64,000 bases of DNA. It comes from Nematopogon swammerdamellus (Eukaryota; Arthropoda; Insecta; Lepidoptera; Adelidae). How positions within the stretch are numbered: the stretch's first letter is position 1; each line of letters opens with the position of its first letter. Positions 1 through 56,977 of the stretch are shown here, piece by piece. The stretch lies in the NCBI GenBank assembly GCA_946902875.1, contig OX336351.1:4275761-4339760 (forward strand), written 5' to 3'. The notes beneath the pieces are model-generated. The model was given only the letters and a program-made list of their open reading frames with translations, had not been told where the DNA came from and searched no databases. Made by a program: the position numbers and the translations under genes.

Positions 1-2164
1 GCGTGCCTGCGAGACATGTGTTGTGTGTTAAGTGTTCTGCATGAGCTTGGTGTCCTTGCCGGCGAACACGACCACGCCGTAGCACCACGAGGTGTTGCGC
101 AGCACGCACCCGCGCAGCAGGATCTTGTCGTTGTCCAGCGAGTAGTGTTGCCCCTGCCAGCTCAGCGTGCCTGCGAGACATGTGTTGTGTGTTAAGTGTT
201 CTGCATGAGCTTTGTGTCCTTGCCGGCGAACACGACCACGCCGTAGCACCACGAGGTGTTGCGCAGCACGCACCCGCGCAGCAGGATCTTGTCGTTGTCC
301 AGCGAGTAGTGTTGCCCCTGCCAGCTCAGCGTGCCTGCGAGACATGTGTTGTGTGTTAAGTGTTCTGCATGAGCTTTGTGTCCTTGCCGGCGAACACGAC
401 CACGCCGTAGCATCACGAGGTGTTGCGCAGCACGCACCCGCGCAGCAGGATCTTGTCGTTGTCCAGCGAGTAGTGTTGCCCCTGCCAGCTCAGCGTGCCT
501 GCGAGACATGTGTTGTGTGTTAAGTGTTCTGCATGAGCTTGGTGTCCTTGCCGGCGAACACGACCACGCCGTAGCACCACGAGGTGTTGCGCAGCACGCA
601 CCCGCGCAGCAGGATCTTGTCGTTGTCCAGCGAGTAGTGTTGCCCCTGCCAGCTCAGCGTGCCTGCGACGACATGTGTTGTGTGTTAAGTGTTCTGCATG
701 AGCTTTGTGTCCTTGCCGGCGAACACGACCACGCCGTAGCACCACGAGGTGTTGCGCAGCACGCACCCGCGCAGCAGGATCTTGTCGTTGTCCAGCGAGT
801 AGTGTTGCCCCTGCCAGCTCAGCGTGCCTGCGAGACATGTGTTGTGTGTTAAGTGTTCTGCATGAGCTTGGTGTCCTTGCCGGCGAACACGACCACGCCG
901 TAGCACCACGAGGTGTTGCGCAGCACGCACCCGCGCAGCAGGATCTTGTCGTTGTCCAGCGAGTAGTGTTGCCCCTGCCAGCTCAGCGTGCCTGCGAGAC
1001 ATGTGTTGTGTGTTAAGTGTTCTGCATGAGCTTGGTGTCCTTGCCGGCGAACACGACCACGCCGTAGCACCACGAGGTGTTGCGCAGCACGCACCCGCGC
1101 AGCAGGATCTTGTCGTTGTCCAGCGAGTAGTGTTGCCCCTGCCAGCTCAGCGTGCCTGCGAGACATGTGTTGTGTGTTAAGTGTTCTGCATGAGCTTGGT
1201 GTCCTTGCCGGCGAACACGACCACGCCGTAGCACCACGAGGTGTTGCGCAGCACGCACCCGCGCAGCAGGATCTTGTCGTTGTCCAGCGAGTAGTGTTGC
1301 CCCTGCCAGCTCAGCGTGCCTGCGACGACATGTGTTGTGTGTTAAGTGTTCTGCATGAGCTTTGTGTCCTTGCCGGCGAACACGACCACGCCGTAGCACC
1401 ACGAGGTGTTGCGCAGCACGCACCCGCGCAGCAGGATCTTGTCGTTGTCCAGCGAGTAGTGTTGCCCCTGCCAGCTCAGCGTGCCTGCGAGACATGTGTT
1501 GTGTGTTAAGTGTTCTGCATGAGCTTGGTGTCCTTGCCGGCGAACACGACCACGCCGTAGCACCACGAGGTGTTGCGCAGCACGCACCCGCGCAGCAGGA
1601 TCTTGTCGTTGTCCAGCGAGTAGTGTTGCCCCTGCCAGCTCAGCGTGCCTGCGACGACATGTGTTGTGTGTTAAGTGTTCTGCATGAGCTTTGTGTCCTT
1701 GCCGGTGAACACGACCACGCCGTAGCACCACGAGGTGTTGCGCAGCACGCACCCGCGCAGCAGGATCTTGTCGTTGTCCAGCGAGTAGTGTTGCCCCTGC
1801 CAGCTCAGCGTGCCTGCGAGACATGTGTTGTGTGTTAAGTGTTCTGCATGAGCTTTGTGTCCTTGCCGGCGAACACGACCACGCCGTAGCACCACGAGGT
1901 GTTGCGCAGCACGCACCCGCGCAGCAGGATCTTGTCGTTGTCCAGCGAGTAGTGTTGCCCCTGCCAGCTCAGCGTGCCTGCGAGACATGTGTTGTGTGTT
2001 AAGTGTTCTGCATGAGCTTGGTGTCCTTGCCGGCGAACACGACCACGCCGTAGCACCACGAGGTGTTGCGCAGCACGCACCCGCGCAGCAGGATCTTGTC
2101 GTTGTCCAGCGAGTAGTGTTGCCCCTGCCAGCTCAGCGTGCCTGCGACATGTGTTGTGTGTTAA
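1..2164 (-). repeat. Tandem array of 13 copies of one P4-ATPase exon (164 bp unit)
   Basis: Thirteen near-identical units of about 164 bp run from the window edge to 2164. Read on the minus strand, each unit has a short pyrimidine-poor spacer ending in GCAG, then 137 nt of coding sequence. That sequence is typical of the P4-ATPase actuator region just before M3 ([30 protein letters not shown]). Each unit therefore keeps a usable 3' splice site. The exon end runs straight into an ACTTAAC spacer with no GT donor, and this gives an in-frame TAA after QNT. Units differ by a few substitutions (synonymous ACC/ACA near the end, one A to T missense near 1705, one TGG to TGA at 413-415) and by 3-bp indels next to the acceptor. 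The array continues to the left of the window, so the copy count is a minimum. Confidence 0.9.
2005..2141 (-). CDS. P4-ATPase (ATP8B-like flippase) exon 5, first-encountered copy of the array
   Basis: This is the copy nearest the upstream exon at 2592-2722. The acceptor is GCAG followed by GCACGCTG. The leading GC completes a glycine codon with the G left by the preceding exon (phase 1), giving FDG-TLSW across the junction, as in animal P4-ATPases. The 45 codons contain [10 protein letters not shown] and GKDTKLMQN, which are conserved in the actuator domain just before transmembrane segment M3. The protein flips phospholipids from the outer to the inner leaflet using ATP. This copy has no donor and would read into TAA at 1999-2001, so a productive transcript probably uses a later copy, beyond the left edge, that keeps its donor. 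The family assignment is secure; the choice of copy is inference. Confidence 0.75.
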
Positions 2165-2575
2165 GCGGCGGGTGGCCGAGTGGTTTGGGCATCGGCTTCT
2201 CATGCGAGAGGTCCGCGGTTCGAATCCGGTCGGCGTGTAGCAATGAGTTTTTTCTGACGAAAAAATTCACGTGCATGCCAACACCTGCTGCGTTCGGAAC
2301 CGGTGTAAAACTGTAGGTCCCTTCCCTTGCCGCTTACTAGGTGGTAGGCTCAAATTGTAGCCGACTGGGTTGGTACCACCGTACTGGATGTAAGATGGCC
2401 GCATAGCAGCCTCGGCTGTGTTCTCCTCTAGTCCAGTATAGCCAGCAATCCACGGAAGTCTCCGGTAAGGCACCTACCTTCTCGGAGGTGATTTTGGCTG
2501 GTCGGAGCATGCGCTTTGGCCCTTCCGAGACAGCCATCCATACCGGATTACATAAAAAAATAAATAAATAAAAAC
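2165..2575 (+). mobile_element. tRNA-headed SINE abutting the exon array
   Basis: The 5' end has tRNA-like box A (TGGCCGAGTGG) and box B (GGTTCGAATCC) sequences. A body follows that includes the module GTAAAACTGTAGGTCCCTTCC and GGTTGGTACCACC, shared with the other SINEs here, and the 3' end is an AATAAATAAATAAAA tail. It starts at the exact end of the exon array and stops 16 bp short of the donor side of the next exon. It therefore fills almost the whole intron between exon 4 and the first exon 5 copy. No target-site duplication was seen. Confidence 0.75.
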
Positions 2576-2591
2576 ATGACGGCTGGCTTAC

Positions 2592-2722
2592 CGTCGAACT
2601 TGTTGAGTAGATTGTTTGGCGTCTCGCAGACGATCTCTCCGTCGAACCGGCCGAGCTGCGCGTCGTCCTGGCCCATCTCCGCCGTCTCCACCAGGCACTG
2701 GCGACATTTCAGGTTCGTCTCT
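2592..2722 (-). CDS. P4-ATPase exon 4 (DGETN loop exon)
   Basis: The minus-strand acceptor TTTCAG precedes the exon and the donor GTAAGC follows it. The first base completes a GGA glycine split by the intron, giving DG-ETNLK, the DGETN-type actuator-domain motif that drives dephosphorylation in P4-ATPases. The 43 full codons then run through CETPNNLLNKFD and end with one G (phase 1), matching the acceptor phase of the exon 5 copies. It is single copy, unlike both flanking array exons. Spacing and motif order match ATP8B-type flippases of animals. The evolutionary family is clear; the exact subfamily (ATP8B/ATPase ID type) rests on remembered similarity. Confidence 0.9.
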
Positions 2723-3429
2723 CTGAAACACGACAGTGTTTGTTTTGAAAAACGCCTTCTCGAAAGTGCCGCTGACAAGGATCGTAATACCGTTATTTCG
2801 CGCAAATGTTATGCGACTATTAAAATAAAAACTATCACTAAAGAAAAACGAATGCATAATGTCGTTTGAAATGTATCAAACGCTACCACAGATTACTTAA
2901 TAGTTACTTCGTAAATAAATCACTGCATATAAAAAGTTCCATACCTCCGGCTTTAATAGCCTAATGTTTCACGTCGCCAATCGCTGTGTGCGAAAATTTA
3001 CCTAAACGATCGAGTGTAAAGTGCACTACTCCTTTGCAGCTGCGCGCAGTTGCGTGGGCGAGCGTGTAGGTAAGTTTCGCGCGGCTGACGAATTTCTACT
3101 GAATTAGACCGCCGGCGGTCCAACGGGCAGTAGGTAGTTAGCGCGCGCAAGTACGTAGAGTGCTTAAGGCCTGACGCTACTCCCCAAACGTTTGAAAATG
3201 AGTTAAAATAATGTTATTCTATTCGGTTGTGATAGTGATAGTTATTTCCCCTCCACCCGAAAACCGCTCCCATAGCGAAATGATAATAACAAAAAAAAGT
3301 AACGATTCAACTAACGTTTCAGTTTTACTGAAACGGATACGGATGGCGGCAAACTGACACCAGTGATGTGAACCCAATATACCTTAGTCAATTAGGTAGA
3401 CTGAACTGGACGGAAAACAAGAACTAGCA
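2723..3429. other. Flippase intron, unique-looking sequence
   Basis: This is the 5'-proximal part (in window orientation) of the intron between exons 3 and 4. It is AT-rich sequence with a moderately GC-rich patch around 3030-3160. I see no exon, RNA gene or recognisable element. Confidence 0.5.
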
Positions 3430-3433
3430 TTAA

Positions 3434-4378
3434 CCTTCAAGCGGTCGCGCGGCGTCGAATCGACCGCACTCAATACATTTTCGTTCATAATATGGTTATT
3501 TCTTGTCGCTTGCATTTCCCATCCCTAGTAGCCTGTCATTGTTTCACTGTTCACGAAATAAACAGTTTACCTCCCCTCATCGCGCGCCACGGAGGGCACA
3601 GATCGCATTTGTTTTAGTGGCGGCGCAGGCGTCGAAAGGACGCCGCGCGCCTGTCGTCGAAAAGGTTACGCGCGACGCTCAACGCAAGATTGTTTTTTAG
3701 AATATCAACAAATATCATTGAACTAAGCTTGTAATAGTGTTTTTTTATTGTAAAAATTACTCGTCAACCGCTGACTAATAGTGAAATAGTTACGTAAATA
3801 CAACGAGTGTTGAAGACGCTGCTGGTAATGAACAAAGCAGTAGTTCCAGCACATGCAGACGAAGGTGCAAAATATGCCCAGCAAAAAAAAGGAGGCAATC
3901 GAAGACACAATTCACATCATGTCTGAGAAATATTTGCAGGACCCACGCTACATCAATAAATTTTATCTTGGCGAAGAAACATATTCTGAAGAAAACTAGA
4001 CCTAAATTGATGATAAATACTTTGATTCTGATTTTATCATTATTATGTGATCTCATGGAGGCAACTGATTTTGTTATTTTGATTGTATTATACTATATAA
4101 AGCTAGTTAGGGGTATATATGAAGATTTTGTGTTGTCAAATTGCTTTCTAATCAAAAGAAAAGTTGACCTATGTTATTTATTTTATAATTTCGTTTTATC
4201 TGAGTTAAAGTTAATTTTTTTCAACATACTGTGTCCCAACATAATGATAATGTGTCTAAATACAAAAAAATACATTATTATTAAATAATTAGTGTTTTAA
4301 AACCCTGAAATATCCCATAGGTCTTTTAGGTTACGCGCGACCGCTGCCGTTACAAATGACCGCGCGCCCGCTTGAAGG
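3434..4378 (+). mobile_element. Degenerate piggyBac-like element flanked by TTAA
   Basis: TTAA at 3430-3433 and TTAA at 4379-4382 flank inverted ends that both read CCTTCAAGCGG into the element, followed by CG-rich subterminal sequence. This fits the TTAA-specific insertion of piggyBac. Internally, part of a transposase C-terminal cysteine-rich domain is still readable (3842-3958). At 945 bp the element is much shorter than an autonomous piggyBac (about 2.4 kb or more), so it is a deletion derivative. It lies inside a flippase intron. Confidence 0.75.
3842..3958 (+). pseudogene. Remnant of piggyBac transposase C-terminal Cys-rich domain
   Basis: In one plus-strand frame the sequence reads a cysteine pattern CRRRCKICPAKKRR, then FTSCLRNICRTH. 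This is the zinc-binding tail found at the C-terminus of piggyBac-family transposases. The DDD catalytic core is absent. The frame runs on past the usual stop to about 4288 without recognisable protein. The call rests on the cysteine spacing together with the TTAA-bounded inverted ends. Confidence 0.65.
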
Positions 4379-4382
4379 TTAA

Positions 4383-5147
4383 CTAACAATTGAAATAGCA
4401 TTAGTTTTTATGGTTGTTGGTAACGGCACTTCGGCGCGCTAGGGTTTTGATAGTAGTAGTTTTGACAGTTTTGCGCCTAGCGTTATTTAAAACGTCATTA
4501 TGCAAACGCTTCCTCTTTTGATGCTTTTGTAACGATTGTCTTCAAACGTTACCAAAATCAACCTATGAAAACGTTATCACACAGCTATTTTGCTAACGTT
4601 TACGAACCCTGGCCGCTGATCGATTTCTTGTTTGGCGGACCCCCCTTAAATTTTTTATTGTTATTTTTTTTTATTATTTATTACTATATTCGCCATAATA
4701 ACAGATAATCGGTGAAAAATTCAATGGCTACCTTTTTTTTTTATAGAAAGCACGACATGTGGCATCGTTTCACTTACGAGTAGGTGACTTACGATGCCCA
4801 TGGAAATTCTGCGATGCACGGGGATTGCGAATGCCATGCCGGCCTGACAGGAGCCTTTTCACGCCCCTTTCGAAAAACCCCAAGCTGTAGGAGGAAATAG
4901 ATTCCACATTTTCCTGGTCCTGTGAATAAAAGACCTACTGAACCGATGGGTTCAGTAGGTTACCGATACCGATTCTCGGTAGGTCGATTGTATAGGGGTG
5001 CATCCCCTATTACGGTTCAAAAGATACAGCCCTTTAAAGGAAGGCCAAACAGACAGACGGACGGACAGAGGGAGGTACAGACGGACGGACGGACGGCGCA
5101 GACATAGTAATAGGGTCCCGTACGGCACCGCCAGCCGGCCGTCTCAC
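4383..5147. repeat. Intronic dispersed lepidopteran repeats
   Basis: 4731-4830 (poly-T, then GACATGTGG, GATGCACGGGGAT) recurs at about 53850-53945. A perfect 12-bp inverted repeat with a 4-nt loop lies at 4933-4960. From about 4985 to 5105 there is a GACAGACGGACGG-type microsatellite tail of a common lepidopteran repeat, also seen near 11100. No coding sequence was seen. Confidence 0.6.
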
Positions 5148-5353
5148 CCGTCAAGCTCTGCGGTCTCGATGTAGCAGAGTCCGTTGGGCTCGCTGGTGCT
5201 GATGAGGAGTATGTCCGCCGCGACGAACTGGTCGTTGTCGAGACGGATCACGTCGCCGACCTGCACCGACGCCCACTTCTCCTCCACCAGCTTGCCGTTG
5301 CGCAGAGCCTTCGCGCGCCGGTGGTTCACCTGCGAGTCGTTCTGGTGACGTTG
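5148..5353 (-). CDS. P4-ATPase exon 3 (actuator domain start)
   Basis: The acceptor TTTGCAG is followed by 68 codons plus two bases, then donor GTGAGAC. It starts in phase 0 and ends in phase 2, matching the exons on both sides. Landmarks in order are NDSQVNHRRAKAL, VQVGDVIRLDNDQFVAADILL and SEPNGLCYIETAELD. These are strongly conserved in P4-ATPases, where this stretch follows M2 and forms the first half of the actuator domain. It joins forward to DGETN in exon 4 and back to DAYDDF at the end of the M1-M2 exon. It is single copy and has intact splice sites and no in-frame stop, so nothing suggests decay. Confidence 0.92.
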
Positions 5354-5849
5354 CTGCAAACAACAACCGCACTCCATTAAGGCCCTGTCGACCCGTATTC
5401 ACCCGTACTTCTCTTTCAAGGCGCCGCTTTCGCTGGTTAGAGTAGGATGCAACACAATCAATCAATAAAAAATTTGGGTTTTTATTTTTTTATTCCAAAA
5501 CTACGGATCGAAACAAAAAAGGAAAAAGCTACGGATTTAGATATATATTCAACAAATAAAATATATTTTTTCCAAAGCCTTTATTTGGTCACGTTGCCGT
5601 CTTTACTAAATACGTTTTTATAACTAAATTCAGAGGCATGTTCATGATTTTTTTCTATCGAGCGAAGTGAATCAAATCGTGTTTTCAAAAAGCTATCGAT
5701 CTGCGTTGATAGATGAAGTTTTACATATATTCAAACTGAATCTGTCAGGTAAGTAATATTGGCGGTACACTTCTTGAAGTTCGAGTCACGCAGTCTCACA
5801 TCACCTTAATATTCACATATATATATTTCGCCACAAAGAACACACAACC
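5354..5849. other. Flippase intron, nothing recognised
   Basis: AT-rich intron sequence between exon 3 and a SINE. I see no open frame, RNA or repeat that can be named. Confidence 0.5.
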
Positions 5850-6328
5850 TTTTGTCAGCCTCGATAGCTCAGTGGTGCAGACAGTCAACTGTCGCTATTG
5901 AATGTTAAGCAACGCTGGGTGCGGTCAGTACTTGGATGGTTACCGCTGACCGTTGGAGGCTGACCGAGGTTCGGATTCCTCGTAAAACTGTAGGTCCCTT
6001 CCCTCCTAATCTTACTTGGTGGTAGGGTTTAACCCGCCCGGGTTGGTACCACCACACTGAATGAAACGTCGGTCTAAACGGCTATGTAAATAGTTTGTGT
6101 TTTCCGACCGGTTCAGTGTAGCCGACACGATCAAAGGAGGAAGCACTGACATGGCACCTAGTTCACCCGGTGTTATGGGCTGACATCACGGACGTTGTAG
6201 GTGATGTAGCCAACCGTGTCAGTTTACATAAAAAAAAAACATTAAGTAACAAATATTTCAGTGAGACATATATTCATTCATTCATGATTCGTCATCATTT
6301 TTGTTTTGTATTATGTAAGACAATTTTG
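5850..6328 (+). mobile_element. tRNA/5S-chimeric SINE plus 3' extension, duplicated in inverted form
   Basis: The head (from about 5858) begins like a tRNA (GCCTCGATAGCTCAGTGG, box A). It then carries GTTAAGCAACGCTGGGTGCG and TACTTGGATGGTTACCGC, close to the internal control region of 5S rRNA genes. It closes with a box-B-like GGTTCGGATTCC. The usual SINE body and an A-run follow (to about 6240). An 88-bp extension at 6241-6328 has no SINE match. The whole block, extension included, is repeated in reverse orientation at 12133-12615. Confidence 0.75.
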
Positions 6329-6351
6329 AAATAGAAGAAATTGGCGAAAAA

Positions 6352-8607
6352 TAGAAGTTGGCGAGCCGCTGGAACTGCTTACGCGGAGATTACTCACAAA
6401 GTTATCGTAGGCGTCCTTGACGGCGGTGAGCGCGAGCACGCCGATGAGCGGGATGGCGGTGGTGATGGGCGTGAACGACCAGATTGCGAGGATCAGCTGC
6501 AGCACGTGCAGGCACAGGAAGTAGAAGTTGACGAGCCGCAGGAACTGCGCACGCGGAGAGTACTCACAAAGTCATCGTAGGCGTCCTTGACGACGGTGAG
6601 CGCGAGCACGCCGATGAGCGGGATGGCGGTGGTGATGGGCGTGAACGACCAGATTGCGAGGATCAGCTGCAGCACGTGCAGGCACAGGAAGTAGAAGTTG
6701 ACGAGCCGCAGGAACTGCGCACGCGGAGAGTACTCACAAAGTCATCGTAGGCGTCCTTGACGACGGTGAGCGCGAGCACGCCGATGAGCGGGATGGCGGT
6801 GGTGATGGGCGTGAGCGACCAGATTGCGAGGATCAGCTGCAGCACGTGCAGGCACAGGAAGTAGAAGTTGACGAGCCGCAGGAACTGCGCACGCGGAGAG
6901 TACTCACAAAGTCATCGTAGGCGTCCTTGACGGCGGTGAGCGCGAGCACGCCGATGAACGGGATGGCGGTGGTGATGGGTGTGAGCGACAAGATGGCGGG
7001 TATCAGCTGCAGCACGAGCAGGCAGAGGAAGTAGAAATTGACGAGCCGCTGGAACGGCTCACGCGGAGATTACTCACAAAGTCATCGTAGGCGTCCTTGA
7101 CGGCGGTGAGCGCGAGCACGCCGATGAGCGGGATGGCGGTGGTGATGGGCGTGAGCGACGAGATGGCGGGGAACAGCTGCAGCACGAGCAGGCACAGGAA
7201 GTAGAAGTTGGCGAGCCGCTGGAACTGCGCACGCGGTGAGTACTCACAAAGTCATCGTAGGCGTCCTTGACGGCGGTGAGCGCGAGCACGCCGATGAGCG
7301 GGATGGCGGTGGTGATGGGCGTGAGCGACAAGATGGCGGGTATTAGCTGCAGCACGAGCAGGCAGAGGAAGTAGAAATTGACGAGCCGCTGGAACTGCTC
7401 ACGCGGAAATTACTCACAAAGTCATCGTAGGCGTCCTTGACGGCGGTGAGCGTGAGCACGCCGATGAGCGGGATGGCGGTGGTGATGGGCGTGAGCGACG
7501 AGATGGCGGGGAACAGCTGCAGCACGAGCAGGCACAGGAAGTAGAAGTTGGCGAGCCGCTGGAACTGCGCACGCGGTGAGTACTCACAAAGTCATCGTAG
7601 GCGTCCTTGACGGCGGTGAGCGCGAGCACGCCGATGAGCGGGATGGCGGTGGTGATGGGCGTGAGCGACGAGATGGCGGGGAACAGCTGCAGCACGAGCG
7701 GGCACAGGAAGTAGAAGTTGGCGAGCCGCTGGAACTGCGCACGCGGTGAGTACTCACAAAGTCATCGTAGGCGTCCTTGACGGCGGTGAGCGCGAGCACG
7801 CCGATGAGCGGGATGGCGGTGGTGATGGGCGTGAGCGACGAGATGGCAGGGAACAGCTGCAGCACGAGCAGGCACAGGAAGTAGAAGTTGGCGAGCCGCT
7901 GGAACTGCGCACGCGGTGAGTACTCACAAAGTCATCGTAGGCGTCCTTGACGGCGGTGAGCGCGAGCACGCCGATGAGCGGGATGGCGGTGGTGATGGGC
8001 GTGAGCGACAAGATGGCGGGTATCAGCTGCAGCACGAGCAGGCAGAGGAAGTAGAAATTGACGAGCCGCTGGAACTGCTCACGCGGAAATTACTCACAAA
8101 GTCATCGTAGGCGTCCTTGACGGCGGTGAGCGTGAGCACGCCGATGAGCGGGATGGCGGTGGTGATGGGCGTGAGCGACGAGATGGCGGGGAACAGCTGC
8201 AGCACGAGCAGGCACAGGAAGTAGAAGTTGGCGAGCCGCTGGAACTGCGCACGCGGTGAGTACTCACAAAGTCATCGTAGGCGTCCTTGACGGCGGTGAG
8301 CGCGAGCACGCCGATGAGCGGGATGGCGGTGGTGATGGGCGTGAGCGACGAGATGGCGGGGAACAGCTGCAGCACGAGCAGGCACAGGAAGTAGAAGTTG
8401 GCGAGCCGCTGGAACTGCGCACGCGGTGAGTACTCACAAAGTCATCGTAGGCGTCCTTGACGGCGGTGAGCGCGAGCACGCCGATGAGCAGGATGGCGGT
8501 GGTGATGGGCGTGAGCGACGAGATGGCGGGGAACAGCTGCAGCACGAGCAGGCACAGGAAGTAGAAGTTGGCGAGCCGCTGGAACTGCGCACGCAGTGAG
8601 TACTCAC
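6352..8607 (-). repeat. Tandem array of 13 partial copies of the P4-ATPase M1-M2 exon (170 bp unit)
   Basis: Each unit is 147 nt of exon (from FQRLANFYF to KDAYDDF) plus 23 nt that starts with the donor GTGAGTA and ends in GCAG. The source exon at 8608-8820 has GAGCAG-TTCCAG inside its coding sequence, so the apparent acceptor of each copy comes from exon sequence. Units fall into at least three sequence classes: AGATTGCGAGGAT at 6380-6830; ACAAGATGGCGGGTAT at about 6985, 7325 and 8005; and ACGAGATGGCGGGGAA elsewhere. Most copies keep an open frame. Confidence 0.92.
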
Positions 8608-8820
8608 AAAGTCATCGTAGGCGTCCTTGACGGCGGTGAGCGCGAGCACGCCGATGAGCGGGATGGCGGTGGTGATGGGCGTGAGCGACGAGATGGCGGG
8701 GATCAGCTGCAGCACGAGCAGGCATAGGAAGTAGAAGTTGGCGAGCCGCTGGAACTGCTCGAGCAGATTCAGCGGCAGGAACGTGATGATCGAGTACTTT
8801 GATGTCTTGATGTAGTTGTT
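8608..8820 (-). CDS. P4-ATPase exon 2 (M1-M2 transmembrane hairpin), full-length copy
   Basis: This exon is exactly 71 codons, phase 0 at both ends, between acceptor CTCTTCCAG and donor GTGAGTA. It opens with [20 protein letters not shown] and [11 protein letters not shown], the conserved P4-ATPase lead into M1. It then encodes M1 ([14 protein letters not shown]), a short outside loop (SLTPITT) and M2 ([20 protein letters not shown]). In flippases, M1 and M2 line the lipid path, and the outer end of M1 contributes to headgroup selection. Only this copy has the 5' part of the exon. The simplest mRNA joins its donor directly to exon 3 at 5353 and treats the downstream array as intron. Confidence 0.92.
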
Positions 8821-11651: not shown

Positions 11652-11980
11652 GTACCGCGTGGGGCCGGTACTTTAAAAGAATAGCCCCACTGCATCTCTC
11701 CCCGTGCATGTCGTAAAAGGCGACTAAGGGATATGACTCCCTTCTTATATTACTAGGTGGTAGGGTTTACCCGCCCGGGTTGGTACCACCGCACTGAATG
11801 AAAGGTCGGTCGAAACGGCTATGTAAATAGTTTGTGTTTTCCGTCCAGTTCAGTGTAGCCGGCACGACCGAAGGGAAGCACTGACGTGGCACCAAGTACA
11901 CCCGGTGTTATGGGCTGACATCACGGATGTTGTAGGTGATGTAGCCAACCGTGTCAGTTTCAATAAAAAAAAAAAAAAAT
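11652..11980 (+). mobile_element. SINE, short form with A-tail
   Basis: It starts TACCGCGTGGGGCCGGTAC and continues AGCCCCACTGCATCTCTCC. It then jumps straight to the shared body (GGTGGTAGGGTTTACCCG, TGTAGGTGATGTAGCC) and ends in a long A-run. Compared with the copy at 20052-20525 it lacks the tRNA/5S segment. Confidence 0.8.
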
Positions 11981-12132
11981 AATAAATAAATAAAAAACTT
12001 CTAAAAGCAATAAACCTTAAATGATAAGTATGGTTTTTAATGGAATAAATGTATGAAACTACTTTCTGTGAATCATATTAATAAATTTTTTTTTGTTTTT
12101 TTTTTTGTGAAAACTGACACACTGGTTGGCTA

Positions 12133-12615
12133 CAAAATTGTCTTACATAATACAAAACAAAAATGATGACGAATCATGAATGAATGAATATATGTCTCAC
12201 TGAAATATTTGTTACTTAATGTTGTTTTTTTTTTTATGTAAACTGACACGGTTGGCTACATCACCTACAACGTCCGTGATGTCAGCCCATAACACCGGGT
12301 GAGCTAGGTGGCATGTCAGCGCTTCCCCCTTTGATCGTGCCGGCTACACTGAACTGGTCGGAAAACACAAACTATTTACATAGCCGTTTCAACCGACGTT
12401 TCATCCGTGCGGTGGTACCAACCCGGGCGGGTTAAACCCTACCACCAAGTAAGATTAGGAGGGAAGGGACCTACAGTTTTACGAGGAATCCGAACCTCGG
12501 TCAGCCTCCAACGGTCAGCGGTCACCCATCCAAGTACTGACCGCACCCAGCGTTGCTTAACATTCAATAGCGACAGTTGACTGTCTGCACCACTGAGCTA
12601 ACGAGGCTGACAAAA
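12133..12615 (-). mobile_element. tRNA/5S-chimeric SINE, inverted copy of 5850-6328
   Basis: The reverse complement matches 5850-6328 throughout, including the 88-bp non-SINE extension (here 12133-12222). A second, partial SINE tail (minus strand, GTAGCCAACCAGTGTGTCAG with an A-run) directly precedes it at about 12084-12132. The extension therefore sits between two SINE 3' ends. Confidence 0.7.
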
Positions 12616-13302
12616 CGTCTATATAAATAAAAATAAAATGCTGCTCATTGGTAATCGCATAACTTGAGAACGGCTGGACCGATTTGGCTTTAAATGTTCG
12701 TAATAGTCAATCAGGATTTTAGAGGAAAAAGGAAATATAATTTAAAGGGAAAATATATAAAAATGTTCAATAAGTTTATAACATACTATGGAATTGACAT
12801 AGAACATAAAAAATATTATCCCGCTTTAGCACTGAAAATATCTGGTCAGGTTAACTAGTCGGGACAGATTGGCTAAGTCCGAACAAAAATGTGGTAACCA
12901 AGTGGTAACACAAAATCTGGAGGACGGATTTAGATATAGGTTTAAAATAGAACATCATTGCAAATTAGTCATGTACAGGCTGTGCCCGCGGCTCCGCTCG
13001 CTCTCATATTTTACTTCACTGCTAACCTCATAAGCCATTTAGCGTGATCAAGCTATCCGTAGAATTTTGTTTTATTAAAATCGGTTCAGTGGTTCTCGAG
13101 TTATAAGCGGACAGACAGACACTCAGACAGACAGAAAGCAGACGTTGGATTTTATTATAGGTAAGGAAGGAAGTACCTACACAAGGAGTTTTAGCAATAA
13201 AATTATTAATATCCTCGTTAATATCAATCAATACTAATAATAAATCTGTAAGGGGTGGTGATGGACCAAGTTATTTTGTTTTATTTTGATATTACGTTTG
13301 GA
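12616..13302. repeat. Dispersed lepidopteran repeats
   Basis: 12640-12740 carries CTTGAGAACGGCTGGACCG. 12968-13165 is a minus-strand copy of the repeat found twice at 18007-18560 (GCGGCTCCGCTCGC ... CAGACGTTGGATTTTATTAT). No coding sequence. Confidence 0.5.
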
Positions 13303-13555: not shown

Positions 13556-13614
13556 TGCATATCGGAATTGCGAGTTGTACTCTCTGTTGTTAGCTTTGAT
13601 TCTCCGTTCAGTCT
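13556..13614 (-). CDS. P4-ATPase short exon (TERRIKANNREYN) before the M1-M2 exon
   Basis: This 59-nt exon lies between acceptor TTTTGTTACAG and donor GTAAGT on the minus strand. Two leading bases (AG) complete a codon begun upstream. Then 19 codons read TERRIKANNREYNSQFRYA, the conserved cytosolic segment just before NNYIKTSKY in animal P4-ATPases (compare the ERRxRANDREYN stretch of ATP8B proteins). It ends in phase 0 and joins the exon at 8820 exactly. With a G contributed by either candidate first exon, the split codon becomes GAG (Glu). Family conservation and splice phase both support it strongly. Confidence 0.88.
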
Positions 13615-13740: not shown

Positions 13741-14072
13741 GTACCGTGTGGGGCCGGTACTTTAAAAGAATAGCCCCACTGCATCTCTCCCCGTGTATGT
13801 CGTAAAAGGCGACTAAGGGATATGACTCCCTTCTTATATTACTAGGTGGTAGGGTTTAACCCGCCCGGGTTGGTACCATCGCACTGAATGAAAGGTCGGT
13901 CGAAACGGCTATGTAAATAGTTTGTGTTTTCCGTCCAGTTCAGTGTAGCCGGCACGACCGAAGGGAAGCACTGACGTGGCACCAAGTTCACCCGGTGTTA
14001 TGGGCTGACATCACGGATGTTGTAGGTGATGTAGCCAACCGTGTCAGTTTCCATAAAAAAAAATAAAAAAAA
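13741..14072 (+). mobile_element. SINE, short form
   Basis: Same family and layout as 11652-11980, starting GTACCGTGTGGGGCCGGTAC and ending in an interrupted A-run. It lacks the tRNA/5S insert. Confidence 0.8.
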
Positions 14073-17028: not shown

Positions 17029-17600
17029 CTACGCTTGGGCTACTAAAGGTTTGCGAGGCTGGCCAAGAAGTTTGTTAAGTAGGCCGGTTGATTTGGTCGG
17101 TTGATCGGTTTGTGACGATGCCAAGAGGTTTGAGAATTTGGCCAAGAGGTTTGCGAAGGTAGTCAAAAGCTTTGCAAGGCTGGCCAAGAGGTTTGTGAAT
17201 TTGTTCAAAAGATTTGCGTTTCCCAATAGGACTGTGACGATGCTAAGAAGTTTGCGCACTTGGCCAAGATATTTGAGAATTTGGCCAAGAGGTTTGCGAA
17301 GATAGTCAAAAGCTTTGCAAGGCTCGCCAAGAGGTTTGTGAATTTAGTCAAAAGATTTGTGTTTCCCAATAGGTCTGTGACGATGCCAAGAATTTTTTGC
17401 ACTTGGCCAAGAGGTTTGAGAATTTGAACAAGAGGTTTGCGAAGATAGTCAAAAGCTTTGCAAGGCTGGCTAAGAGATGTGTGAATTTGGCCAAAAAATT
17501 TGCGTTTCCAAATAGGTTTGTGACGATGCCGACAGGTTTCGTACTTGGCCAGAGGTTTGGAAGTCTGACAAGAGCTTTGCGAAGTTGGCCTCTTGGGTTG
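17029..17600. repeat. Minisatellite with 21-bp basic unit and 122/143-bp higher-order period
   Basis: The basic unit resembles GGCCAAGAGGTTTGNGAATTT. The marker TGTGACGATG recurs at 17111, 17233, 17376 and 17519, giving spacings of 122, 143 and 143 bp, which differ by exactly one basic unit. Minus-strand frames are open and Leu/Ala-rich (FANLLAKFSNLLA) because the unit is a multiple of three. I treat these as a by-product, not a gene. Confidence 0.8.
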
Positions 17601-18560: not shown

Positions 18561-18773
18561 ATATTATATTTTACAATCCCAAAATGACGTATTTTGCTAC
18601 TACCTACTTATATTTCACAATATATACGACTCTTCAAACATCCAAAGGTTCACTGAAGAAATTCCTGTAAGAGATAAGTCTGCCTTTGCCCCATGTAAAT
18701 TACATATCGAGTTTCTTTCTGGAAAATGTATTTGGAGCAACAAAGTATTTCTACCCTAATCTATCACACCAGG

Positions 18774-19095
18774 TTTTTTTTTTATGGATAGTGACACGGT
18801 TGGCTACATCACCTACAACATCCGTGATGTCAGCCCATAACACCGGGTAAACTTGGTGCCACGTCAGTGCTTCCCTTCGGTCGTGCCGGCTACACTGAAC
18901 TGGACGGAAAAACACAAACTATTTACATAGCCGTTTCGACCGACCTTTCATTCAATGCGGTGGTACCAACCCGGGCGGGCTAAACCCTACCACCTAGTAA
19001 TATAAGGGAGTCATATCCCTTAGTCACCTTTTACGACATACACGGGGAGAGATGCAGTGGGGCTATTCTTTTAAAGTAACGGCACCACACGGTAC
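18774..19095 (-). mobile_element. SINE, short form
   Basis: Reverse-oriented copy of the family, with poly-T at the left (its A-tail) and CCACACGGTAC at the right (its 5' end). No tRNA/5S segment. Confidence 0.8.
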
Positions 19096-19482: not shown

Positions 19483-20051
19483 TTTTTTTAAGTAATTTTT
19501 CATTTTACAGTTTTTTCAGTAATTTTTTGCTATTAATGTACTCGGCGGAATCGCTCGGCCTTAGGCCTCGCGATTCCGCTTGGCTTTCCAATCCGATCTT
19601 GACCAAATTGAAATGGGACCACACGGGAAGCACCAGCTTTCAAATAAAAAAAGAATCATCAAAATCGGTTCACCCAGTCGAAAGTTCTGAGGGGAAAAAC
19701 ATTAAAAAAAAAAACAATGGAATTGAGAACCTCCTCCTTTTTTTTTTAAGTCGGTTAAAAAAGGGATCGAAAATGGCGGCGTTTTACAGCTGTACAGTCG
19801 GCAGGCAATTTTTCTTTTTTTCCATAGTATATTTTTTTATTTGAAAATTTTCATCTCGGATCAATTGCTTTATTTTCTTTAGACGGCAATACTGTGTGAG
19901 CGAGAGGCAAATAGGAGCAAAATCCCTTTCTTTAAAGGTTATATGTACCTATGTACCTTAGGTGTGTCCTTGAAGATTTGAAGGGTAGAAAAATGCTTTT
20001 CCAAGATGATGTGCTGATTGTCTGCTGTATATATTACGAGTTTAGATATAA

Positions 20052-20525
20052 TTTTTTTTTTTTATGGAACCTGACACGGTTGGCTACATCACCTACAACA
20101 TCCGTGATGTCAGCCCATAACACCGGGTGAACTAGGTGCCATGTCAGTGCTTCCCTTCATTTCATGTCGGCTACACTAAACTGGACGGAAAACACGAACT
20201 ATTTACATAGCCGTTTCGACCGACGTTTCGTTGAGTGCGGTGGTACCAACCCGGCCGGGATAAACCCTACCACCTTGTAAGGTAAGAAGGAAAGGGACCT
20301 ACAGTTTAACGTGGAATCCGAACCACGGTCAGCCTCCAACGGTCGAGCGGTCACCCATCCAATAACTGACCGCGCTCAGCGTTGCTTAATAACAGTTGAC
20401 TAACCAACCGCGCCACTGAGCTACCGAGGCTGACGAATTTTCTTATCCCTTAGTCGACTTTTACGACATGCGACGGGGAGAGATGCAGTGGGGCTATTCT
20501 TTTTAAGTACCGACCCCACACGGTA
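20052..20525 (-). mobile_element. Long-form SINE holding both head types
   Basis: Read on the minus strand it starts TACCGTGTGGGGTCGGTAC and runs to GACTAAGGGAT. It then continues with a tRNA-like start (GCCTCGGTAGCTCAGTGG), a 5S-like segment (TTAAGCAACGCTGAGCGCGG, TTGGATGGGTGACCGCTC) and GGTTCGGATTCC, followed by the shared body and A-tail. It shows the arrangement from which the short forms appear to have lost the tRNA/5S part. Confidence 0.75.
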
Positions 20526-23337: not shown

Positions 23338-23761
23338 TGGGGGTCGGCTTCTCTTGCGAGAGGTCCGAGGTTTGAATCCAACCGCCGCGCCGTGCCGTGT
23401 ACAAATGAGTTTTTTCGGATTCCATGTATGTACTTAAAAAAATTATGCAAGGCAATTTCCTCCAGTGAACCCAGTGGATCTATATTTAATGTAGGCCCAC
23501 CGGGTTGTCTGGAGGAAATTAAGGGATATGACTCCCTTCTTATATTACTAGGTGGTAGGGTTTAACCCGCCCGGGTTGGTAACACCGCACTGAATGAAAG
23601 CTCGGTCTAAACGGCTATGTAAATAGTTTTCCGTCCAGTTCAGTGTAGCCGGCACGACCGAAGGGAAGCACTGACGTGGCACCAAGTTGACCCGGTGTTA
23701 TGGACTGACATCACGGATGTTGTAGGTGATGTAGCCAACCGTGTCAGTTTTCCGTAAAAAA
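23338..23761 (+). mobile_element. Two SINE fragments in tandem
   Basis: 23338-23460 has a tRNA-like head (CGGCTTCTCTTGCGAGAGGT, GGTTTGAATCCAACC) related to that at 2165. A short segment with CCAGTGAACCCAGTGGATC follows. 23521-23761 is a 5'-truncated copy of the common SINE body. Confidence 0.65.
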
Positions 23762-29399: not shown

Positions 29400-30200
29400 T
29401 TAATGAGCTGAGTTTAGTGGCGTTTGGGGGTGCGGAGTGGGTTTCGTGTGGCGCGAGGGGTGCGTGAGTGAACCGCGGCGCCGGAGATCGATCGTGTTGA
29501 CACCGCGAGGGCGGAGGGGGGCGAAGGGCGACACTGACCGCATGAGATGAAGGTCTTGAAGCGGTGGTTGTGGCGGTGCTGGGGCGGGGGCGCTCGCGGT
29601 GTCGGGTCGCGGCGCACCAGCTTGCCGAGAACCCCCAGCAGCGAGAGGCGGAAGCGTCGCGCGGCCGGCCGCCCCGCCTCCGCGCCGCCGCCTCCGCCGC
29701 CTTCACCTGCTCCTAGCACCTCCAGCTCCACGGCGTCCGAGCGCGCCGACATCCGCACGCCTCTACCTCATGTCACCGCACCGCACTACCACTGCACTGT
29801 GTGTTAGTGAGCCGCGCCGTCGTCGTCGTGCCTCCGCCTGCTTGCGATCTCCTCTCGTCTAGAGATGGATGGGGCACCGTCTCGCCGTGAGTGCTGGAGG
29901 TGGGCGCGGAGGGGGAGCGCGGCGCCTGCGCTCTGCGAGTGCTCAGGTGGCGCCGCGCGGCGTCAAGGGAACACACGAGAAGCGAGATGCGCGCGCCGAG
30001 CGGCGATCACGCGCACTACACAACTGTCAACGGTAAACCGGCGCGTGGCGGCGAGTTTGCATGTAAACAGCCGGTAGCAGCCGAGCCGGCGCGGCGGCAC
30101 GCGCCGCGCCACGCTGCATGCCGTCGTCCTGTGCCGCAACAGCGTCAAGATAACATTATCGCGATGACCGGCTCCGTCCCACCGAGAGACGCCACTTCAG
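29400..30200 (-). promoter_or_regulatory. CpG-rich island around the candidate first exon
   Basis: About 800 bp of CpG-dense sequence within AT-rich DNA, containing the candidate first coding exon. The part upstream on the minus strand (29753-30200) has no long minus-strand frame and is a plausible promoter and 5' UTR. No clear TATA box or initiator was identified. Confidence 0.5.
29539..29752 (-). CDS. Candidate first coding exon of the P4-ATPase (long N-terminus)
   Basis: On the minus strand, an ATG (29750-29752) is the first after an in-frame TGA. It opens 71 codons: an acidic start (SDAVELEVLG), a glycine run, then basic ARRFRLSLLGVLGKLVRRDP and HNHRFKTFISC. After one further G comes a donor, GTCAGT. 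Phase 1 fits the exon at 13614, and the joined codon is GAG, giving SCETERRIKAN. It lies in a CpG-rich island, as a promoter-proximal exon would. The ATP8B-family N-terminus is poorly conserved, so the assignment rests on phase, splice site and position, with a 15.9 kb intron implied. Plus-strand frames here look like shadows. Confidence 0.6.
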
Positions 30201-32725: not shown

Positions 32726-32759
32726 CCTGTCCTTGTGTGCGCGCGGAGGACTTGCCCAT
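32726..32759 (-). CDS. Candidate alternative first coding exon of the P4-ATPase (short N-terminus)
   Basis: On the minus strand, an ATG with a G at -3 and +4 follows an in-frame TGA and opens MGKSSARTQGQ. One further G comes before donor GTGAGTC. This is the same phase (1) as the exon at 29539-29752, so splicing to 13614 also restores GAG and TERRIKAN. The resulting short N-terminus would be similar in length to vertebrate ATP8B2-type proteins. It sits in a CpG-rich island (about 32700-33000). A Gly at position 2 with Ser at 5 and 6 would allow N-myristoylation (inference). It could also belong to another transcript. Confidence 0.4.
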
Positions 32760-33000: not shown

Positions 33001-33362
33001 ACAAACAACAATACCGGTTACTGCATGCAACAATACCGGTTAGTGCATGCAACAATACCGGTTACTGGATGCAACAATACCGGTTACTGGATGCAATACC
33101 GCTTACTCCATGCAACAATACCGGTTACTGCATGCAACAATACCGGTTACTGGATGCAACAATACCGGTTACTGGATGCAACAATACCGGTCACTGGGTG
33201 CAACAATACCGGTTACTGGATGCAACAATACCGGTTACTGGATGCAACAATACCGGTTACTGGATGCAACAATACCGGTTACTGGATGCAACAATAGCGG
33301 TTACTGCATGCAACAATACCGGTTACTGGATGCAACAATACCGATTACGTATGACAATGGCG
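33001..33362. repeat. 22-bp minisatellite, about 16 units
   Basis: The unit is CAACAATACCGGTTACTGGATG with point variants (GCATG, GGGTG). The last units drift to CAATACCGATTACGTATGA. The unit has no stop in any plus frame, and 22 is not a multiple of 3, so all three forward frames are open. These frames are artefacts. Confidence 0.9.
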
Positions 33363-33385: not shown

Positions 33386-33640
33386 TAGGGATATGACTCC
33401 CTTCTTATATTACTAGGTGGTAGGGTTTAACCCGCCCGGGTTGATACCATCGCACTGAATGAAAGGTCGGTCGAAACGGCTATGTAAATAGTTTGTGTTT
33501 TCCGTCCAGTTCAGTGTAACCGGCACGACCGAAGGGAAGCACTGACGTGACACCAAGTTTACCCGGTGTTATGGGCTGACTGCTGACATCACGGATGTTG
33601 TAGGTGATGTAGCCAACTGTGTCAGTTTCCATAAAAAAAA
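33386..33640 (+). mobile_element. 5'-truncated SINE
   Basis: It starts at AGGGATATGACTCCC and ends with an A-run, next to the decayed end of the minisatellite. Variants include a duplicated GCTGACT near 33575. Confidence 0.8.
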
Positions 33641-33824: not shown

Positions 33825-33990
33825 ACAACAATGGCCGTTTACGTACGATATTACAACAAAATTGAGTACATATAACAACAACATCTATCATACGTACAAC
33901 AGATATTATGTATCACGTATGACAACAACACCGATTACGTATGACAACAACACCGATTACGTATGACAACAACACCGATTACGTGTTTGG
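33825..33990. repeat. Dispersed repeat carrying a 22-bp minisatellite variant
   Basis: ACAACAATGGCCGTTTACGT, ACATATAACAACAACATCTA, then three units of CAACAACACCGATTACGTATGA. The same block recurs at about 54870-55040. Confidence 0.75.
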
Positions 33991-35065
33991 TGTTCCGAAC
34001 CCTTTTATTTAATGAAGTCCTGAATCCTGATGGCGCAGTTGAACAATACTTGACAAGAATATTAACCATTGACACTAAAATAAAAAAAAAATGTAATAAA
34101 TAAATTAAAAAATAACCCCATTGGCCACTTACGGGCGAACAATTTTATTTAATGTTTGCTTTAGATAGGTAGAAATAATTGATTGTTCCAAAATATTTTT
34201 ACAGAAACAAGCTCTCCATACAATATACATCTGGGGCAAAGGCGAAATTATCCCTTAAAGGGATTTTTTCAAGCCAACCTTCGGGTATTGGATAGTTATA
34301 AATATATACATTTTTATATTGTTACCATTTTATATTCGTTGAGAGCGATACTCAAGACGGACAGACAGACACAAGACAGCGATAAAAAAAGAAGTGAAGA
34401 GGTTTATAAAAGGAATTTCGCTTAAAATAAAATACAACGTTCGGCAAATATTTTATTATCTGATTGTGTACTACCACTTAAGTTTCCAAGAAAAAAAAAC
34501 AACTTGTTTATTGATGTAATAACAAGATAACTGAGTAGGTAGGTACCTAGTAATTCCAACAATTCCAGCCTGACTAAAGCCGCGTCTCCTGCGCATGTTT
34601 TTTCGAAACAATACACAAAACACATAAACATTATTTCTCTAAGGTTTCTTGAAATTCGAGTCAGACAGCCTCACGTAAGCAAGAGAATCTGACTATAGAG
34701 CTTCGTCTAGGAATTCTAGGATAGAGACGCGCGAGTTCGTGCGATAGGGACGGCGCTCTACAACCGGATGGTCTCTCTCTAAAGCTCGACACACATTATG
34801 TATTTCCAACCGTACGTTGTTTGGCCAAGATTTTGGAAGGATAGTAGATATGCGAAGGAGGCGTGTCCGCGACACGTTAATATGGGTAGATTTACCCATA
34901 TTAACTATCGATGTGTGAGTACATTGTATATTGCTATTACCTACTTATATCTCACACCATACGACTCTATAACGTCCAACGGTTGACTGGGAGGAATAAG
35001 TCCGCCTTTGTCATGTAAAATACTTATAATTTGTTTCTGTCAAATGGTTTTTTGGAGCAATAAAG
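33991..35065. other. Nothing firmly recognised
   Basis: Contains decayed dispersed-repeat motifs (GGCAAAGGCGAAATTATCCC near 34236) but no gene. A short palindrome, ATATGGGTAGATTTACCCATAT, lies near 34880. Confidence 0.4.
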
Positions 35066-35351
35066 TTTTTTTTTTATGGAAATTGACACGGTTGGCTACA
35101 TCACCTACAACATCCGTGATGTCAGCCCATAACACCGGGTGTGAACTTGGTGCCACGTCAGTGCTTCCCTTCGGTCGTGCCGGCTACACTGAACTGAACT
35201 GAAAACACAAACTATTTACATAGCCGTTTCGACCGACCTTTCATTCAGTGCGGTGGTACCAACCCGGGCGGGTTAAACCATACCACCTAGTAATATAAGA
35301 AGGGAGTCATATCCCTTAGTCGCTTTTTACGACATAAACGGAGATAGATGC
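35066..35351 (-). mobile_element. SINE, left part, interrupted by the outer BEL/Pao element
   Basis: The minus-oriented SINE runs from its A-tail at 35066 to GATGC at 35347-35351. It resumes at 53524-53570 after the retrotransposon. The two parts together match other copies through the CTGCATCTC region. Confidence 0.88.
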
Positions 35352-35639: not shown

Positions 35640-36603
35640 CGTCGCGAAAATCTCGACGCGCGCGGTGCGACGCGCGACCGCCATTGCATCACTTTGGCGG
35701 ACACCACGCGCTTCGCTCGACTTCGAACTCGGAGCACACGGCACCGAGGATCCTACAAGTCAACATCACGCCTCAAGCAAAGTCATCGCATCAGTTTCAT
35801 CGTCCCGCGGGAGCCGACAGCGGTCATCGGACTCAGCACACGGCACGTGGTGGACACGACGGTACACAGCTGTCATCAATCGATCGGACAAGAAAGAAGA
35901 CTCAAGTTCAAGACGCCTGCGCAGCGCGGCGGAGGTTGAGAACTCGTGAGATCGTTCCGATATATCCTTATTATTGCCTGCATTCCCTGCTTAATCCTGC
36001 GATCATCCTTTCAGTAGTTTGGCTAGAATTTCATTTCATTACTGCCTACCTACATCTATAAAAAAAAAAACTTTCATTGCTTTCATACTTGCAAACCATT
36101 CTTGCAAATTCATTTATGTAATTTACTGAGTGCATGCCTTCATTTCATCGCATTCCTGTGCTAATTTCGTTAAAATTTAGGACCTTTTGGATCACGAGAA
36201 GGGTCTACATACATACTTATATCTACTATCATTTGCATGCAGCATTGCATAGTTATAAATCGTTATCCCGCTTTATCTCCAAACAGCTTCACTTAAGTTC
36301 TTGATTTGTGATTCTTAATTGTGTTGTTGTAGCGACGACGGTGCCAGCTGGACGGTCAAGCGGACCGGTTGAGCGAGATACAATCAGTGCGGTGCACACG
36401 TGCGACACACATACTACTAACAAACGGAATATAAGTATCCCAACATTCGTAAAATTTCTCCTTCTCTTTCTCCTTTGTCAGTTTCAGTATATAAAACTCC
36501 ACACGCCAGCCGCGTGAGTAAAATAAATTGTAAACCAATCATAATCACAGTTCATTTAATTATCCATATTTATAATTAATCAAATCAAATATTCATTATT
36601 ATC
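35640..36603. other. Outer element leader
   Basis: Almost 1 kb between PBS and gag. It contains a 146-codon plus frame (35621-36061) without recognisable domain, which I do not call as a gene. Confidence 0.5.
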
Positions 36604-38091
36604 ATGGCTCAATCAATTGAGAAATTAATAAAAAGGCGTGCATCATTGAAAGCTAAGTTAACTCAATTTAACACCTATTTCAAGGTGCTTTCCAGTAATC
36701 CTAAGTTAAGCGAGCTACAATTACTTGAGCTCGACAATAGACTTTCCAAAATCACCGAAGTATATCCTGAATATGATGTCCTCCAATCTGAAATCGAACT
36801 TTTATGTGAAACTTCAGATGAGCAGTTTGCGGAACGCGAGAAGTTCGACGAGCAGTACTTCAAGCTGGTGTCGGCCGCACGACAGCTCGTCGCTAGGGAC
36901 AGCCGCGTACAGGATGGTGGTCAGGCGCTGGCAAGTACAGCGGAAGGTAAAGGTGAACGTGGGACAAGTCATCCAGGGGGTTCGGTCAAATTACCCACCA
37001 TTGAGTTGCCCACGTTCTCCGGTCAGTATCAACACTGGCTTGAATTTAGAGACACATTCACTTCACTTATTCACACAAACAATTCGATACAACCGATTAA
37101 CAAATTTCATTATTTGCGCGCTGCTCTGAAGGGTAGCGCATTGTTGGTTACCGATTCATTAGAGTTTTCAGCGGCAAATTACACTATCGCATGGCAACAG
37201 CTGTGCGAACGATTTGATAATAGCAGGTTATTAATTAATAATCATATGAATGCATTGTTTAACATTTCACCCATGAAAGAGGAATCACCTAAGGCAATAA
37301 GGCACATTTTAGATACATTTACAAAAAACTTGCGTGCGTTGGAGACGCTGAACGAACCAGTGACGCACTGGGACACCATGATCATTCATCTTGTATCAAG
37401 CAAGCTCGACTCTGTCACCGCGCTCGAGTGGGAAGTGTATCGCAACACGCTGTCGGGCGCTCCCAAGTTGGGCGACCTGAGCAAATACTTACGTGACCGA
37501 GCCAACTTGCTTGAGACAATGGCAGATTCAAAACGTAAAACCAGCATCGACAAATATAATGCCAAGTCACTCATAATCACGTCACCATCAACAAAATATA
37601 CCTGCCCAGTATGTAAGGGAAAACATGCTTTGTTTGCTTGTCACGACTTTAAAACTTTATCCATAGAAGCACGGAATGATAAAGTTAGAGAGTTGCACTA
37701 TTGCTGGAACTGTCTCCAGCCAGGTCATTCACACAAGGACTGCAAGAGCGGTCACTGCAAGTTGTGCACACAAAAACACAACACACTACTACATATAGAC
37801 AGAGGTGTACACGAAACAATAAACACAAACATTTCATTACCGGCCACGGTAAACGCACAGGTAGTACTGTCAACTGACGTCGTCAAGGTTGAAGACAATC
37901 AAGGTAGGCTACACACAGTTCGAGCGCTGCTCGACAATGGCAGCATGTCATGCTTTATCACACAAAACTTATGCAAAGTTCTTAATTTGGCTACACAGGC
38001 CACACACGTTTCAGTATCCGGTATCAACGGCCGCACAAGTGTCGTCAATCGGAAGTGCAGCGTTACAGTCAGTTCACGTTTTAACAGATAT
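36604..38091 (+). pseudogene. Outer element gag and start of protease, cut by insertion
   Basis: The frame opens MAQSIEKLIKRRASLKAKL. It contains the BEL/Pao Gag region (DUF1759-type: LPTIELPTFSGQYQHW, RDTFTSLIH, YLRAALKGSA) at about residues 128-215. Zinc-binding cysteines follow at about 336-350 (CPVCKGKHALFAC) and 368-390 (CWNCLQPGHSHKDC). The aspartic protease begins with ALLDNGSMSCFI at about residue 440. At 38092 the inner LTR starts; the frame reads 12 codons of it and stops at 38127. Gag itself is intact and the protease is split. The remainder is at 49519-53147 in the same frame when the insert is discounted. Confidence 0.92.
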
Positions 38092-40381: not shown

Positions 40382-40382
40382 G

Positions 40383-40400
40383 TGGTCCTTCGAGCCGGAT
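40383..40400 (+). promoter_or_regulatory. Primer binding site of inner element (tRNA-Tyr type)
   Basis: TGGTCCTTCGAGCCGGA, one base after the LTR, is complementary to the 3' end of insect tRNA-Tyr (CCGGCTCGAAGGA plus CCA) as I remember that tRNA. Confidence 0.7.
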
Positions 40401-40421
40401 TTACGCACCACGGCAAGCACG

Positions 40422-42947: not shown

Positions 42948-43150
42948 CAGAGCGGGCGCACATCACGGTCAGACGCGGCTTTCGCCAACAGCATCGCGTC
43001 GACCGTCTCCTCCGAGAGCGCAGTGCACGTCACACGCACCGCGCCTCGGGAACCTACAGCAACAGAGGCAGCTTACGCCAACAGCTGCCTGCGGCCGACG
43101 GCGCGCGCGGAGCACGACACTCGCACCGCGCCTCGAGCCGCAACATTAAC
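42390..43150 (+). repeat. Rearranged segment: copies of pol 3' sequences in place of protease
   Basis: 42390-42460 resembles 44867-44931 (ACCGGGCGGA ... GAATCGTTCCGCTCGGA). 42470-42665 resembles 46015-46200 (AAGATCGACGACAT, CGCCTCGTGACGTATGGCCG). The Ala-rich tail is repeated several times through 43150. Confidence 0.85.
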
Positions 43151-54869: not shown

Positions 54870-55040
54870 TATGAAAACAATGCCCGTTTACGTACAATAT
54901 TACAACAAAACTGAGTACATATAAAAACAACATCTATCATACGTACAACATATTGTATCACGTATGACAACAACACCGATTACATATCACGTATGACAAC
55001 AACACCGATTACGTATGACAACAACACCGATTACATAATA
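54870..55040. repeat. Dispersed repeat with 22-bp minisatellite variant, second copy
   Basis: Homologous to 33825-33990, including AACAAAACTGAGTACATATA and units of CAACAACACCGATTACGTATGA. A GATCCTATAGGATC palindrome and a GACAGACAGACAATGTCTGTC inverted repeat follow by 55110. Confidence 0.75.
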
Positions 55041-56930: not shown

Positions 56931-56977
56931 GCTGAACTAGCGCGATATACCAACATCATATATGGCAGTTTAGAAAA

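Follow-up and report, generated by a model that had tools for sequence, protein, structure and literature searches.

In the 64,000-nucleotide stretch of the Nematopogon swammerdamellus genome analysed here (the window), a minus-strand flippase gene carries two tandem arrays of exon-edge copies, one repeating the 3′ edge and donor of exon E2 and the other the 5′ edge and acceptor of exon E5. We think it probable that these are two independent tandem expansions, each straddling an exon–intron boundary, which are tolerated as intron since splicing pairs the outer sites, and that they are not a selected buffer. The gene offers a natural test of splice-site choice. In its native setting it presents 14 donors that agree over 7 nt, together with 13 or more near-identical acceptors, and only one donor and one acceptor are predicted to give protein.

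The gene and its two arrays

Sequence comparison identifies the gene as an ATP8B-class P4-ATPase, a flippase or membrane-lipid pump. The protein of exons E1–E5 has Phospholipid-transporting ATPase IC (ATP8B1) as its best PDB match (E = 5e-83) and contains the P4 N-terminal domain PF16209 (E = 1e-22); PF00122 scores below its cutoff, and TIGR01652 reaches 284.7 bits against a whole-protein cutoff of 431, a shortfall expected of a fragment. Its relatives carry the names ATPase ID, IM or 8B among the matches listed. We assign the gene to the ATP8B class on this closest match and on the N-terminal P4 domain, both within the 5′ part that the window covers; the phosphorylation and ATP-binding exons would fall beyond the window start. 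The relatives came from three protein searches (the best 120 of 887, 120 of 757 and 120 of 5183, the last having scored 7985 candidates), which together gave 279 distinct proteins, and the 157 relatives of 600 aa or more were taken as full length. Of 240 relatives compared with the E1–E5 protein, the closest 40 are 93.6–95.6% identical to it, and those of the 40 that are named are Lepidoptera. In the fly, odorant receptor function depends on the homologue (PMC3961175).

All exons lie on the minus strand, and there are two alternative first coding exons, whose edges were placed by eye from homology. Exon B (MGKSSARTQGQ-, 32726–32759) has a phase-1 donor GTGAGT and matches 17 residues of the orthologue N-terminus P0143 by tblastn at E = 0.007, which is weak alone and is joined by the evidence of the sequence itself. 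Exon A (MSARSDAVELEVLGA...HNHRFKTFISC-, 29539–29752) has a phase-1 donor GTCAGT and is supported by its sequence and by tblastn to Pectinophora P0175 (E = 3e-21), which likewise starts MSARSDAV and is the sole MSARSD start among the 157 full-length models. Exon E1 (ETERRIKANNREYNSQFRYA) lies at about 13556–13614 between the acceptor ttacag and the donor GTAAGT, followed by the complete copy of E2 (8608–8820; 71 codons of the M1–M2 region), E3 (QRHQNDS...ELDG, 5148–5353) and E4 (ETNLK...NKFD, 2592–2722). With BLASTN at E up to 1e-4, E1, E3 and E4 each match the window once, which bears out the preliminary description in calling the two exons between the arrays single copy. The part of intron 4 that precedes the first acceptor (2142–2591) partly resembles repeat elements elsewhere in the window (73–82%), and E5 comes into view only as truncated copies within 2141–1. 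Both alternative first exons and E1–E4 are open with intact splice sites, and the gene looks alive as far as the window shows.

Array 1 (6375–8754, minus strand) consists of 14 units of 170 bp, each made of 147 nt of E2, the donor GTGAGTA and a further 16 nt. The 14 donor-bearing copies reported earlier from the sequence are all there, at a spacing of exactly 170 bp throughout, and the 7-nt donor, at plus-strand coordinates 8607, 8437 ... 6397, is identical in 14/14. Copy 1 is the last 147 nt of the complete E2, copies 2–14 span 8584–6375, and a truncated 15th copy of about 25 bp follows at 6349–6374. The description of these copies as each ending in a donor needs amendment: every copy has the donor, and CAG also closes 13 of the 14 junctions, so that most copies have AG on one side and GT on the other. 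The reading frame of the exonic part is kept in all 14. Thirteen distinct sequences are found among the 14 copies, with a mean pairwise identity of 95.2% and a minimum of 91.2%. Their order is a mosaic in which pairs 4–5, 8–9 and 10–11 are the same two variants; with variant classes assigned by the analyst, variant B is followed by variant C in 3 of 3 cases (permutation p = 0.003), and this mosaic order fits unequal exchange in blocks. As for microhomology at the duplication junctions, the E2 breakpoint lies within or before GAGCAG, but its other parent sequence can no longer be seen. About 20 bp separate the truncated copy from a repeat element at 5847–6328, labelled SINE-like by eye, which has a 96% copy at 12133–12618.

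Array 2 (1–2165, minus strand) shows 13 units of 164 or 165 bp and runs off the window at position 1; its copy number is at least 13, and the last copy would lie beyond the window. Each unit comprises 26–27 nt holding CTTAAC, which we take to be a plausible branch point, and a CAG acceptor, followed by about 138 nt of E5. The 13 acceptors run from 2141 to 170 in steps of 164 or 165 bp, confirming at least 13 acceptor-bearing copies after E4 that have no donor, as had been described. Mean identity is 99.4% over 141 compared positions, 3 of which vary, and the 12 complete units hold 5 distinct sequences, so the array appears to be young or well homogenised; the same near-uniformity makes its unit count less certain. 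All 13 visible copies end after KLMQN, where 149 of the 157 full-length relatives read MQNSGKT. The duplication junction encodes T and then TAA, which sits inside CTTAAC, and one variant creates a stop in unit 11. The last repeat-like stretch of intron 4 stops about 17 bp before the first unit.

Across the 64 kb, TRF with periods up to 500 returned 22 rows, among which only arrays 1 and 2 have a unit above 100 bp and more than 10 copies. With the extra copies removed, a random 170-bp seed would straddle an edge of any of the seven exons with P = 0.032, and two seeds would both fall on exon edges with a probability of about 0.001, a post hoc figure computed with first-exon coordinates that are a few bases off. 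To this extent the earlier judgement that a double amplification is unlikely to be chance holds; the part of it that drew on similar unit size falls away, because each unit is roughly one exon piece and the likeness is therefore no extra coincidence.

Splicing outcomes and a proposed origin

In conceptual splicing, donor 1 leads into an open fragment of 250 codons, and donors 2–14 lead to a premature stop after 148 or 156 residues. Among the visible acceptors, 12 of 13 give a stop 47 codons past E4 and unit 11 gives one at 28. Since the other choices run into stops, one donor, and one acceptor that would lie outside the window, can make protein.

We propose that two separate segments of about 165–170 bp, each lying across an exon–intron boundary of a working flippase gene, underwent tandem duplication, and that unequal exchange or slippage later expanded them. 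Array 1 would thereby have multiplied the 3′ edge of E2 together with its donor, and array 2 the 5′ edge of E5 together with a branch-point-like motif and its acceptor. A complete exon would remain at the outer edge of each array: copy 1 of E2 is visible, and the last E5 copy with its donor is predicted to lie beyond the window start. If an acceptor and a donor are paired across the complete exon, the extra copies would be removed with the intron, and wrong splice choices would presumably be destroyed by nonsense-mediated decay. The productive E2 donor would then sit on the exon copy that faces away from the extra copies, and the same is predicted for E5. That donors are multiplied in array 1 and acceptors in array 2 would follow if extra copies can persist only where they lie to the intron side of an exon that is intact; a donor-bearing fragment could accumulate only downstream of a complete exon, and an acceptor-bearing one only upstream. 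Local instability, which the preliminary description had listed among its options, is the origin that the arrays support.

For Drosophila, the case has been made that decay shelters new introns (PMC2809761). A study that calls the pairing of insect splice sites, across the exon or across the intron, uncertain in vivo concludes from Drosophila nascent RNA that intron definition can serve for more than 80% of the introns of late embryos (PMC8906543). Here it would favour the first array 2 acceptor and spoil the transcript; across-exon pairing is thus not universal, and the splicing mechanism for the arrays remains one that we infer.

Constraint on the copies and competing explanations

Relative to copy 1, copies 2–14 of array 1 carry 22 distinct changes. 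Fourteen are replacements, on 107.3 sites, and 8 are silent, on 39.7 sites, a ratio 0.65 of neutral (p = 0.34 against neutral). Nothing in these numbers suggests protein constraint on the copies, in a weak test of 22 changes that would leave mild constraint possible. The replacements fall on 13 residues. All but one of these are invariant in 157/157 full-length relatives, and the complete E2 copy is identical at 71/71 residues in 49 of the 157; both counts overstate conservation, as these relatives were picked by similarity to E2 and to a moth-like relative. At the 13th changed residue, A to T, T occurs in 37 relatives too.

The copies might instead be a selected splice-choice device, in which they tune productive mRNA via dead-end isoforms through poison choice and decay. 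The extra sites tested do lead to stops, and intronic tandem repeats reportedly affect splicing in human TERT (PMC3948165) and ABCA7 (PMC5954066). The donors are also unvaried in 14/14, and this is a marginal sign of constraint: 7 of the 23 junction sites in array 1 vary, all of them avoiding GTGAGTA (P = 0.047). However, a conservation that is only marginal, an array 2 that is nearly uniform and looks young, and a repeated exon in 0/157 full-length models (though models may hide arrays) leave us regarding such a device as unlikely. The suggestion in the preliminary description that the copies act as selected buffers or decoys is likewise unsupported, with copies 2–14 changing as if unconstrained. 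Hardly credible to us is the idea that the array 1 copies serve as cassette or mutually exclusive exons (AG–147 nt–GT, 49 codons, phase 0–0). It would draw on the kept frame and on junctions that, in 13 of 14 cases, read GT...CAG, but a 23-nt gap is too short for an intron and by eye has no pyrimidine tract, the copies lose residues that are invariant in all full-length relatives, and a single copy would be without the first 22 residues of E2. For a new intron, which needs a usable donor–acceptor pair, the same 23-nt GT...CAG spans would be too short, although longer spans could serve.

Two further explanations concern the status of the locus. That this gene copy is dead and an intact paralogue sits elsewhere, which had been named in advance as a finding that would overturn the earlier account, is quite improbable in our view: E5 is in view only as truncated copies and all later exons lie outside the window, as a dead copy would allow, but both alternative starts and E1–E4 remain open and splice-competent, so the visible part looks like that of a live gene. 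We consider it very improbable that the copies were added by the assembler. The 13 distinct copies of array 1 differ by up to 9%, and the assembly keeps apart two identical 2,291-bp repeats spaced 9.1 kb, which suggests long reads; array 2, with 5 distinct sequences in its 12 complete units, is where a count could be off.

Relatives, known systems and other repeats

E2–E5 are each found in 157/157 full-length relatives, none twice at >60% identity, and the arrays therefore look derived. Our preferred reading of two boundary-straddling expansions could be extended if this ATP8B stretch were prone to exon-edge amplification in moths, with arrays at different exons in different species, a possibility that we hold tentatively. 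P0001, a truncated 385-aa model of this gene from Phthorimaea operculella, contains three in-frame copies of the second half of E3. One copy of E4 is likewise in frame, and a second one lies in a different frame (68.6% over 35 residues, E = 1e-14); a ten-residue piece between its E3 copies resembles another E3 frame (3/2000 shuffles reach the score), and E2 is found once in it. Set against this, P0001 is one automatic gene model, known from protein alone, and the assembly published for P. operculella, a polished one from raw Nanopore/Canu (PMC9719551), may not underlie it. The full-length models with no repeated exon count here too, although models of array-bearing genes would tend to break or skip the arrays. 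If P0001 is real, four successive exons of one gene are affected in two moths. It would be speculative to go further and make the 5′ part of moth ATP8B a recurrent hotspot, in which E2 and E5 here and E3 and E4 in P. operculella independently spawn arrays, here as ladders of 14 identical donors and at least 13 near-identical acceptors in fixed steps of 164–170 nt, among which the spliceosome would still pick out the one pair that is productive; such a locus would show intron growth from exon edges in a conserved gene.

Two other relatives were rejected as support for repeated exons. In spider P0052 one E5 seems to have been read in the wrong frame, and crab P0004, a 388-aa Chionoecetes opilio model with part of E2–E3 twice and a frameshift, may be an assembly fault or else a partial exon duplication. 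When viral and prokaryote contigs were searched for relatives, a pattern fitted 3 and 37 stretches respectively, none of which was confirmed.

Internal tandem repeats at exon–intron boundaries have been described in human genes that lie within segmental duplications (De Grassi & Ciccarelli 2009, PMC2812944), where they can change splicing or form introns and where slippage or unequal crossover was proposed. Both arrays are of this type, in that the unit takes in exon, intron and a splice site. As that study describes them, the human units average 30 bp in 4 copies within recently duplicated paralogues, whereas here a conserved insect gene holds 14 copies of one unit and at least 13 of the other, at 164–170 bp each. 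The novelty relative to known boundary repeats lies in this unit size and copy number, and in the occurrence twice in one conserved gene at opposite splice signals; among the matches listed from the open-access literature, none described arrays like these for a flippase gene or for Lepidoptera. Intron gain in potato RdRp involved a duplicated unit that, like array 2, spans the 3′ side of an intron (branch site and acceptor) and the 5′ side of an exon (PMC4974935). As reported there, a single duplication produced a new intron with a recruited donor, whereas here many copies are present and no new donor is seen, which argues for growth of an existing intron.

Dscam-type tandem exon arrays also place similar exons side by side in one gene, but those are alternative exons of which one is used (PMC1397879, PMC6071210), whereas the visible extra copies here are truncated and show no protein constraint. 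Complete exons with their own acceptor and donor and a conserved protein, as in mutually exclusive arrays, are not what these copies contain. Coding minisatellites and VNTRs are tandem repeats within genes that have a mosaic variant order; our arrays share the position within a gene and, in array 1, the mosaic order, and differ in being mostly predicted intron. Array copy number should, on this prediction, leave the protein unaltered.

The SINE-like family, again so labelled by eye, has about ten copies with 85–96% identity to the one beside array 1, and these sit in the flippase gene introns and upstream (5847–6328, 11738–11988, 12133–12618, 13827–14063, 18773–19007, 20049–20437, 23533–23761, 33398–33640, 35061–35305 and 62108–62343). 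Close to the distal end of array 2 there are diverged repeat-element stretches as well. A tRNA scan, and Rfam at gathering threshold, gave no match. Shorter tandem repeats reported by TRF include 22-bp minisatellites at 33006–33348, 33915–33984 and 54956–55050, and a minisatellite unit ACGTATGACAACAACACCGATT is present at two distant sites, as if borne by a mobile element. A nested repeat at 17120–17590 combines a 143-bp unit in 3.3 copies with a 21-bp unit in 23 (GCCAAGAGGTTTG...). An apparently very recent retroelement insertion occupies 38092–49519: its direct repeats of 2,291 bp, at 38092–40382 and 47229–49519, are 100% identical and enclose a Pao-type polyprotein ORF (42948–46664). It lies between a DUF1759/protease ORF (36580–38127) and another Pao-type ORF (49218–53147), and is perhaps nested. 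LINE-type ORFs are found at 56936–61454, the second of which (58626–61454) has endonuclease and reverse transcriptase domains.
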